A stretch of DNA of 64,000 nucleotides. It comes from Candidatus Peregrinibacteria bacterium RIFOXYB2_FULL_33_20. Lineage in GTDB: Bacteria; Patescibacteriota; Gracilibacteria; UBA1369; GWF2-33-10. Of the stretch, positions 44,131 to 57,953 are shown in pieces. Where the stretch lies: the NCBI GenBank assembly GCA_001788835.1, contig MFXK01000006.1, positions 16,988 through 80,987 of the forward strand, in the 5' to 3' direction. Under the pieces are notes generated by a model. It was not told where the DNA came from. It saw only the letters and a list, made by a program, of their open reading frames with translations, and searched no databases. Both the position numbers and the translations under genes were made by a program. Positions within the stretch are counted from its first letter, which is position 1; each line of letters opens with the position of its first letter.

Positions 44131-44142
44131 TGAGCCCGAAAG

Positions 44143-44545
44143 CCCCTTTTTCAGTCATAAGCCGAATCCTGTTCCTCCTATGCTAAAGCTTCGAAGGGTT
44201 GATCATCTATCTAATTTCTATATCACTATAGAACTTAAGCGATTATGAAGCTGGCGCATTTGAGACTTTGTTGCGTAAATCCAGTCTTCCCATATAATCT
44301 TGCAGCCTGTAGAGTTTGCCAATCCAATATCATTACTGATATAGGGTCCCTGCTGAGCGAGGGCTTTTCACCTTTTGCCCTCCTACACCAAGGTTTCGGA
44401 GGGTTAGTATTGTCTCTGTGGCACTGGTCCTATTTTAGGCATTACCCTAAAATGATAGTCATTAGCTATTACAGCGTCTTAAAAGCTGTTCGGACTTTCC
44501 TCCTGTTTTGAAAAAACAAACAGGCGATCATTCCTGAAAAAGGGG
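44143..44545 (-). ncRNA. rnpB: RNase P RNA
   Basis: Minus strand reads ...CAGGAGGAAAGTCCGAACAGC...GGAACAGGATTCGGCTTATGACTG; P1 pairing CTGAAAAAGGGG (44534-44545) with CCCCTTTTTCAG (44143-44154). Confidence 0.95.
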
Positions 44546-45930: not shown

Positions 45931-46095
45931 AACTCACCCCCCTGCCCCCGCCTCTCTTAAAAAAGAGGGGGGAATTCTGACGAGTAACTCACCTTCTCTG
46001 CCCCAACTCTCTTAAAAGAGAGGGGGGTGGAAAAAGTCCCTCTCTTTCAAGCTTGTCCTCGACTCCGATCGGGGAAGAGGGATTTAGGGTGAGTT
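45931..46095. repeat. Cluster of family-A palindromic arms
   Basis: aactcacccccctgcccccgcctctctt...aactcaccttctctgccccaactctcttaaaagagagg...ccctctctt...aagagggatttagggtgagtt. Confidence 0.85.
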
Positions 46096-46991
46096 TTTAG
46101 CATCAAATATTTTTCAGCATTTGGGAAAAGGGCTTTTTCTGGAATTAATCCAACTAATTCGGATTCAAGAATTTCAAGATTATTTTCACTACATTCTTTT
46201 TTTATAAAATCAAAAACAGTTTTTGGCGATGTAATTGTGTAGTCTGTGAGGTTCATAGAAATTTGGATTTTATGTTGGTTTTTTAATTTTAAGGCTAAAG
46301 CTTTGACACATGGAAGTCCTCCATTGCTTTCACGGATTTTTTTTGCAATATTAGTTGCAATCCTAAAGATGTTAAGATTCCTGTTTTCACAGGAATGACA
46401 GTGAGTGGAATAAGAATGACAGGTCGAAATATTTATATTAAATGCAATCAGGATTTTTCTTGCGCCAATACAGATTCCACCTGCTGAACCAATTTTTTTT
46501 GGTCCAAAATCAGGGTTTAGATCTTCATTTGTTTTTATCTCATTTTCTAATTTTAAAAAACCTTGATTTCGAATATGGCTTAAATTTTTACGTTCAGGCC
46601 TTTTGGCAGAATATTCAAACAAATAAACAGGAATTTTTAAATTTTTTCCAACTTTTTTTCCTAGTTTTTCTGCAATTTGGCAACATTCATCCATGGATGA
46701 ATTTCTAAGTGGCACAAATGGGACTACATCTGTTGCGCCAATAAATGGATGAACGCCAGAATGTTTATTTAAATCAATAATTTCTGAGGCTTTTTTGATG
46801 GCATTATAAGCTCCATTTAAAATGTTTTTTTCGTTTCCAGTAAAAGTTACAACTGACCTGTTATGATCAACATCACTCGAAAAATCCAAAATTTTAATCT
46901 CAGGAATTTTTTTAATTTCATCAAGAATTTGATTCAAAATTTTTGGATCGCTGGTGGAAAAATTAGGGACACATTCAATGATTTTGGACAT
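46047..46991 (-). CDS. Glutamate formiminotransferase (FTCD N-terminal family) with repeat-derived internal segment and C-terminus
   Basis: ECVPNFSTSDP; HNRSVVTFTG; HSGVHPFIGATDVVPFVPL; MNLTDYTITSPKTVFDFI. Confidence 0.9.
   Translation of the reverse strand: MSKIIECVPNFSTSDPKILNQILDEIKKIPEIKILDFSSDVDHNRSVVTFTGNEKNILNGAYNAIKKASEIIDLNKHSGVHPFIGATDVVPFVPLRNSSMDECCQIAEKLGKKVGKNLKIPVYLFEYSAKRPERKNLSHIRNQGFLKLENEIKTNEDLNPDFGPKKIGSAGGICIGARKILIAFNINISTCHSYSTHCHSCENRNLNIFRIATNIAKKIRESNGGLPCVKALALKLKNQHKIQISMNLTDYTITSPKTVFDFIKKECSENNLEILESELVGLIPEKALFPNAEKYLMLKTHPKSLFPDRSRGQA
46375..46422. repeat. Family-B palindrome (TGTCATTCCTGTgaaaACAGGAATCT) inside the formiminotransferase
   Basis: agattcctgttttcacaggaatgaca; encodes THCHSCENRNL. 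Confidence 0.85.
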
Positions 46992-49997: not shown

Positions 49998-50019
49998 GAG
50001 AATAAATACTGTCGTCAGC

Positions 50020-50203
50020 GTCATTCCAGATTTAGTCTGGAATCCAGTAGAGGACTAACTCGATAGTATTGTGTTTTATTTTATGTGGAGAATTAGTTAG
50101 AAAAAATAAGAAGATACAATTTCATGATAGATTTTATTTATATAGGAAGTTAGTGAATAAATAATGAGTATATTTACTGGATTCCAGCCTTCACTGGAAT
50201 GAC
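50020..50203. mobile_element. MITE-like non-coding inverted-repeat element (family B termini)
   Basis: GTCATTCCAG..CTGGAATCCAGTA ... TACTGGATTCCAG..CTGGAATGAC, each end itself a hairpin. Confidence 0.55.
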
Positions 50204-50256
50204 TAGCAGGCGAGAATGACTATTTAATAATTTTTTACTTTTAAACAATTTATTTT

Positions 50257-56717: not shown

Positions 56718-57887
56718 TTAGGAAAAAAATTTTTCGTATTCATTAACCATTTTCTTCAAATCAAATTTTTCCTGGCAAAGTTTATAAGCGTTTTCGATAA
56801 TTTTTTGTGTTTTTTCTGGATTTTGAATGTACCAGTTTATTGCTTTTTCCAAAGCTTCTGGATTTTTGGCCGGAATAATTTTGCTATGCACTTCATCTTC
56901 TAAATAATCAGAAATACCGCAAACATTTGTTACAATTGTTGGAATTTTTGAGGCCATGGCTTCAGCAATAACTAGGCCAAATGGATCATGCTCGGATGAT
57001 GGAAGTACGAAGATATCAATATTTTTAAAAAATTTTAAAATTTCTTCGCGAGAGAGTTTGCTAAGAAGATGAATGTGTGGAGCGGAGGGGGAGTTTTTTA
57101 TTAATTTTATTAGATTTGCTTTGTCTGGTCCTTCGCCAACGATAAAAAGTTCTGCGTTTTGGATATTTTTAAAGGCTTTGATTAACGTGTCTATACCTTT
57201 GTCTGGAGTTAGGCGAGCGATGCAACCAATCCTTTTGTCATTCCTGTGGAAACAGGAATCTTTATTGTCTGTGGGACAAGATTCCTGCTCTTGCAGGAAT
57301 GACAGATGATCGATACCGTTTGGGATGTCGACAACATTATGAGCCCAGGATAGATATTTGGCTGATTGTTTTGAGACGCAAATAATTTTGACGAATCTTG
57401 ACCAAAGTTTATAAAAAATTTTCCATGGATTTGAAGTTAGCCATTTGCCAATGCGGGCATGTTCAATCCAGATGATTTTTGGAGAAGAAAGAAGAAAGAA
57501 AAAAGAAAAAAGTTTAATAATAGGAGTTAGAAGTAGTTTTTCCGATAAAGAAAGCATGTAAATAGCTTTTAGTTTATAGCTGTTGGCTTTTAGGATTTGG
57601 AAATATTTGAAAAAGAAATATACAAAAATAAATGGGCTAAGGAGAGTGAAGGTGAGGAGTGAGAATTTGGAGACGGGAGGGGAGGGGAATAATTTTGAAT
57701 TTTGAATTTTGAATTTTGAATTAAGTTTTTGTAATTTTATAAATTCTTTGCTTAAGATTGGACAGCTGGTCCATAAGATAATATCCCAACCGCGTTTTTG
57801 TAGAGTTTGCGCTAAATTAATGGTATGCTGTTCTTCTCCTCCGAACTGTGAACTATACGGAAATCTTGTTATAAGTAGGCTAGGCAT
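56718..57887 (-). CDS. Glycosyltransferase family 4, interrupted in frame by several repeat-derived segments
   Basis: TRFPYSSQFGGEEQHTINLAQTLQKRGWDIILWT; RIGCIARLTPDKGIDTLIKAF; VLPSSEHDPFGLVIAEAMASKIPTIVTNVCGI. Confidence 0.92.
   Translation of the reverse strand: MPSLLITRFPYSSQFGGEEQHTINLAQTLQKRGWDIILWTSCPILSKEFIKLQKLNSKFKIQNSKLFPSPPVSKFSLLTFTLLSPFIFVYFFFKYFQILKANSYKLKAIYMLSLSEKLLLTPIIKLFSFFFLLSSPKIIWIEHARIGKWLTSNPWKIFYKLWSRFVKIICVSKQSAKYLSWAHNVVDIPNGIDHLSFLQEQESCPTDNKDSCFHRNDKRIGCIARLTPDKGIDTLIKAFKNIQNAELFIVGEGPDKANLIKLIKNSPSAPHIHLLSKLSREEILKFFKNIDIFVLPSSEHDPFGLVIAEAMASKIPTIVTNVCGISDYLEDEVHSKIIPAKNPEALEKAINWYIQNPEKTQKIIENAYKLCQEKFDLKKMVNEYEKFFS
57236..57304. repeat. 69-bp (23-codon) family-B double-hairpin inverted repeat inside the GT4 gene
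   Basis: tgtcattcctgtggaaacaggaatctttattgtctgtgggacaagattcctgctcttgcaggaatgaca. Confidence 0.9.
57484..57512. repeat. AAAGAAAAAAG-type purine repeat inside GT4
   Basis: agaagaaagaagaaagaaaaaagaaaaaa; similar tracts at 25490-25512 and 62887-62911. Confidence 0.6.
57691..57722. repeat. (AATTTTG)n tandem repeat inside GT4 (NSKFKIQNSKL)
   Basis: aattttgaattttgaattttgaattttgaatt; another copy at 57896-57914. Confidence 0.8.
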
Positions 57888-57953
57888 GCAATAATAATTT
57901 TGAATTTTGAATTTCCTATTTAATATTACCTTAAATATGGATAAAAAAAAATT

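Follow-up and report, generated by a model that had tools for sequence, protein, structure and literature searches.

A CGTC-type REP dimer within a GT4 glycosyltransferase gene of a Peregrinibacteria genome, and related repeats lying in frame in core genes

The window, a stretch of 64,000 nucleotides from Candidatus Peregrinibacteria bacterium RIFOXYB2_FULL_33_20, carries a gene for a GT4 glycosyltransferase whose coding sequence contains a pair of inverted hairpins (Table 1). The sequence of this 69-bp pair is exactly as the first-pass annotation gave it, and its in-frame position was equally well founded: the ORF is intact, and its Glycos_transf_1 domain is found above the Pfam cut-off (1.9e-39). 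Folded as RNA, the element reaches -35 kcal/mol, with z-scores of -7.0 and -8.6 on the two strands, and none of 200 shuffled sequences was equally stable. The single Rfam family matched in the window is the bacterial RNase P RNA class A, at 44142-44542. A different repeat, TTTTGAATTTTGAATT, lies in frame near the N-terminal region of the GT4 (57692-57725, read as LNSKFKIQNSK) and recurs directly upstream of the gene (57895-57915).

Table 1. Features of the window, and ORFs of the genome that carry S-family arms (S and L, short and long repeat families; HH, head-head)
Feature	Positions	Strand
GT4 glycosyltransferase, 389 aa, element as interdomain linker at about residues 195-217	56718..57887	-
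S-family CGTC-type REP doublet, HH, TGTC tags outward, 69 bp	57236..57304	.
REP arm TGTCATTCCTG-TGGAAA-CAGGAATCTT, 8-bp stem, 4-nt loop GGAA	57236..57262	+
Spacer, 15 bp, sequence unlike other S doublet spacers	57263..57277	.
REP arm TGTCATTCCTG-CAAGAG-CAGGAATCTT, 8-bp stem, inverse orientation	57278..57304	-
Single S arm read as CHSCENRNL in the FTCD (formiminotransferase) gene (about 46047-46991, -)	46374..46400	-
Intergenic L-family doublet of a CGTC-type REP; CCA tails, long spacer, every frame closed	50019..50204	.
One-site S-bearing ORFs (Pfam): PGI, riboflavin synthase, formiminotransferase, GT4, two Mur ligases, amidohydrolase, HisIE, HisF, HisH, Maf, WecG/TagA, O-antigen ligase, UvrC, PrmC, Sua5, YggU, NadC, PdxT		
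Two-site S-bearing ORFs (Pfam): GMP synthase, DHFR, polysaccharide pyruvyl transferase, ATP-grasp protein		

The arms of this element are repeated throughout the genome. Scanning the 1.5-Mb sequence with the arm pattern GTCATTCCNGNNNNNNCNGGAATC, with up to 3 mismatches allowed, gave 52+57 matches, compared with 2+4 in a reversed control. Sorted by tail, the arms form two families. The short family, S, has 27-bp arms with the tail CTT, in which TGTCATTCCTG and CAGGAATCTT enclose 6 nt, and these are found either alone or in inverted pairs spanning 68-71 bp. The long family, L, has the tail CCA; its arms end in CCAGTA, and its doublets extend over 130-360 bp around a long AT-rich spacer. The first-pass annotation had likened the GT4 element to the 184-bp element at 50020-50203. 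The two do share the hairpin core, but they belong to different families, S with CTT and a short spacer and L with CCAGTA and a long AT-rich one. Among the ten S doublets the spacers are all 14-17 bp long and their sequences are unrelated, so that the geometry is nearly constant without any conserved spacer being found; no target-site duplication was found at the doublets either. The unconserved spacer and the absent duplication weaken the view that the doublet inserts as one unit. L arms, embedded in longer conserved flanks, lie at the ends of contigs C1, C8, C9, C11, C12, C19, C27, and C30, and there probably form part of some larger unit, present in multiple copies, at which the assembly broke.

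CGTC REPs were defined by Di Nocera et al. (2013, PMC3733652) as a group that includes dRS3 and RPE-4/RPE-6. Most REPs are intergenic, intragenic copies occur in several species, no transposase is associated with them, and most, though not all, CGTC-1 tails fit CCA (PMC3733652). The S family resembles CGTC-1 in its unpaired terminal tag, here TGTC, in its stem, ATTCCTGC / 4-nt loop / GCAGGAAT, of 8 bp with A-T first, in the presence of some copies inside ORFs, and in the lack of a dedicated repeat-flanked transposase (PMC3733652), PF01797 being absent and DUF559 genes unbracketed by the arms. All ten S doublets are head-head dimers with tags outside; pairs were sought in this orientation only, and the arm list holds no tail-outside pair. 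The S tail is CTT rather than the usual CCA, which L has, and this speaks against the CGTC-REP reading. The S family also differs from CGTC-1 in its many singletons, in its unconserved doublet spacers, and in having over half of its loci in genes, whereas REPs are mostly intergenic (PMC3733652). Judged by these features, the element at 57236-57304 consists of two CGTC-type REP units paired head to head, with CGTC-1 as the nearest family. Its superfamily is that of Neisseria dRS3 and Rickettsia RPE-4/RPE-6.

The placement of S and L arms with respect to genes is strikingly different. Of the 49 S loci, a number that includes 3 doubtful members, 28 lie inside coding sequence, across 24 long ORFs, and the frame is kept in 28/28 (p about 4e-14 against 1/3). 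The in-gene arms use five of the six frames, and the one never used is that with a TGA. L arms are found inside a gene in 0/40 cases (Fisher p = 6e-10 versus S); one sits upstream of a start codon. This absence is likely because an open frame is lacking in 9 of the 11 complete L elements, while S elements are mostly open: single S arms average 4.6 open frames of 6, any given arm being open in four or five, with an obligatory TGA in the sixth. Of the S-bearing ORFs, 23 of 24 pass Pfam cut-offs, all as ordinary enzymes (Table 1), and an acyltransferase-like ORF has no Pfam match. The genes affected include murC, murD, guaA, folA, hisF, pyrC, and uvrC; the amidohydrolase is, in our reading, a dihydroorotase. 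The remaining S copies lie upstream of starts, at gene ends, or between genes, and none was found to split a gene. Thus, the S copies behave as RPEs are described, in that the repeat is in frame and the ORFs are left undestroyed.

It had been anticipated that genic copies would have lengths divisible by 3 and intergenic copies would not. Neither expectation held: the in-gene doublets measure 69, 69, 68, 71, and 68 bp, and the non-genic ones 69, 69, 70, 70, and 69 bp. What preserves the frame is the overall change at each site, bases flanking the arms included, rather than any set length of the element. A further palindrome family apparently gives rise to peptides such as PHPSLKREG, PPPTPPLQRRGEENLF, and SPPCPRSLEREG, within proteins or at their ends; the ORFs concerned are murD (L010), trpG (L088), and the O-antigen ligase (L071).

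In the GT4, the element occupies the linker, variable among orthologs, that joins the two Rossmann domains; this interdomain placement had been proposed from the DNA alone. Modelling of the insertion site agrees: AlphaFold2, with a 14-sequence alignment, gave a confident GT-B model (pLDDT 89.3) in which the sole very-low-confidence segment, with values below 50, comprises residues 203-214, inside the element. The modelled structure matches GT-B enzymes of family GT4. Orthologs were found in 14 other genomes of the order, and a search of the wider contig collection with the protein returned no related loci. The linkers of the orthologs show little sequence conservation and range from about 10 to 30 residues; that of the nearest ortholog (60% identity) has 18 residues, NGIDLNEFKKIKKLEFELQKF-KIG, and that of this GT4 has 26, NGIDHLSFLQEQESCPTDNKDSCFHRNDKRIG. 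The encoded peptide given by the first-pass annotation has the right residues, of which the element proper accounts for SFLQEQESCPTDNKDSCFHRND, with D, H, and part of L coming from the flank. The element was also described as 23 extra codons; it is in frame and corresponds to about 23 residues, but compared with the orthologs it is no clean addition, since the native linker is replaced or constituted by it. The element supplies nearly all of the linker, and we infer that it either replaced an older one or entered beside it with the rest subsequently lost. A glycosyltransferase in genome G021 (L255) carries an arm in what is apparently the same linker.

Related genomes show how widely such insertions are shared. 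Ca. Peregrinibacteria bacterium RIFOXYB2_FULL_32_7 (G001) belongs to the same family as the window genome but to another genus. At the 20 S sites that can be compared, the arm is absent from G001 in 18 and present in two, murD and hisIE, where identical 24-nt arms occur in both genera. These two genes are 84 and 90% similar between the genera, which is unusually high, and the shared insertions could reflect either vertical descent or recent transfer. In Sua5, the window genome (L075) and the G001 ortholog (L134) carry different repeats at one site, which suggests an insertion-tolerant hot spot. In G021, from another family of the order, 26/42 arms satisfy the in-ORF criterion, and a few of those ORFs look spurious. 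Arm-bearing genes include purL; further ones are tsaD, pgm/pmm, carB, recF, and pheT, whose identities come from Pfam matches or from our own reading. When a single exact pattern and a single criterion are applied throughout, the fraction lying in genes comes to 23/47 for the window genome and about 14/79 for other Patescibacteria. It is 8/148 among the matches listed from contig-scan stretches, many of them from Flavobacteria, a rough yardstick that includes two G001 stretches and some ORFs that look spurious. Exact arms occur in 86/380 sampled genomes of the phylum. On this comparison, another family of the order also has in-gene CGTC REPs, and so, with weaker support, do other Patescibacteria.

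REPINs are defined by a GTAG tag and a RAYT (Y1) gene in the genome. Here the tag is TGTC, and no member of the Y1 transposase family was found in the window genome, but the arrangement of two inverted REP hairpins, tags outward, around a spacer is that of a REPIN (PMC3116915). dRS3 shares the CGTC-1 hairpin class but occurs mostly in large clusters (PMC3733652), unlike the S copies, which are dispersed and often intragenic. In Rickettsia, RPE-4, RPE-6, and RPE-7 lie in genes, in exposed segments, and contain an ATGAC motif (PMC3767692). The likeness of the S family to RPE-4 and RPE-6 is close: these are CGTC REPs in frame in core genes, ATGAC also ends the S arms (PMC3733652; PMC3767692), the rickettsial copies occupy solvent-exposed segments, and pheT is hit in both Rickettsia and G021. 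However, the host belongs to another phylum, and the copies here are short singles or doublets of 68-71 bp. Since an RPE is by criterion found in Rickettsia, the S repeat resembles an RPE in its behaviour without belonging to that class. The contrast between S and L is that of the Correia elements, whose 107-bp form, with open frames, occurs in genes and whose 155-bp form, with stops, does not (PMC2229807); the sequences are unrelated, and Correia elements differ in TIR and TA target type.

Repeat identity, copy number, frame, orthologs without the element, and modelled position are matters of observation. We consider it very probable, from the sequence comparisons, that a CGTC-1-like REP dimer that multiplied in the genome now constitutes the GT4 linker and is translated. 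A non-autonomous palindromic repeat would have been mobile and multiplied in a Peregrinibacteria-type genome, and a copy in a gene would survive only if it left the frame open and added its peptide to a loop, linker, or terminus able to tolerate it. The S family would be fit for such in-gene life because its arms are open in most frames. One doublet would have landed in the variable linker of the GT4, where its translation would yield about 23 mostly disordered residues. Most in-gene copies are presumably neutral.

It is tempting to think that the in-gene copies have been put to use, with mRNA hairpins tuning translation or decay, or linkers helping the enzymes, so that selection keeps them. 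The stable RNA hairpins with GNRA-like loops fit such a role, as do the many core genes affected and the murD and hisIE insertions common to two genera. Yet 18 of 20 sites are not common to the related genomes, the use of five reading frames means that no single peptide is favoured, the sites fall in variable loops and linkers, and recent transfer could explain the sharing of two genes so similar; we regard use as unlikely. The strong self-folding of the hairpins in the coding strand raises a further idea, that the element is absent from the protein, being either cut out of the transcript or bypassed by the ribosome in the manner of an intron, IStron, or byp-like element. Skipping would not need all in-gene copies to be in frame and stop-free, as they are, nor avoidance of the arm frame with the obligatory TGA, and Rfam matched no intron or ribozyme family in the window other than RNase P, all of which makes this reading highly improbable. 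A chance palindrome, or an assembly error in a single gene, would be suspected from the fragmented draft genome, with L copies at several contig ends; the roughly 109 matches against 6 in the control, the recurrence of these arms at corresponding sites in a genus whose genome was assembled independently, and frames open throughout led us to reject it, and we give it the least credence.

As to what might mobilise the repeat, two candidates were tried and rejected. PF01797 (RAYT/Y1) was not found in the window genome, at 96% completeness, nor in G001 or G021, assemblies in which gaps remain; across the 20 REP-bearing genomes tested it is present in 13, following no rule. For the DUF559 nuclease, a CGTC arm occurs anywhere in the stretch at only 2/10 loci, and arms bracket it on both sides at 0/10. 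Separately, the EPSP synthase of the window genome contains an in-frame DUF559 (PF04480) nuclease-like domain (contig C16, L058:2714-3150); in this aroA ORF (L058:1754-3556) the domain is bracketed by palindromes CCCCCTTGATAAAGGGGG and CCCCTTTATCAAGGGG. The same kind of flanking, by C4/G4 palindromes, is seen at another intact DUF559 gene (G145, L353). DUF559 with its palindromes is possibly a mobile nuclease-palindrome unit.

The name REP implies an extragenic element, and the best-known palindromes that code for protein are those of Rickettsia and Wolbachia. Intragenic CGTC REPs were known before in other groups; the open-access literature, to which our survey extended, yielded no account of them in Peregrinibacteria or any other Patescibacteria. 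In two families of one patescibacterial order, some 15-25 core genes each are decorated in frame by CGTC REPs, which provides a second, phylogenetically remote case for studying the conversion of mobile DNA into protein sequence. Within one genome, the contrast between S and L offers a simple rule, that open frames decide in-gene residence. The findings also carry a warning for annotation: where patescibacterial proteins contain odd insert peptides such as KIPAFAGMT, CHSCEGRNL, and DSRLRGND, these derive from repeats. It is conceivable, though we hold it doubtful, that one Peregrinibacteria REP lineage has become specialised for coding sequences: with most frames free of stops and no stop-rich spacer, it would spread through essential genes as a recurrent source of new loops and linkers, and this would have happened independently in two or more families of the order. 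On the sequence evidence, many core enzymes of this organism seem to contain segments translated from a mobile repeat, as happens in Rickettsia.
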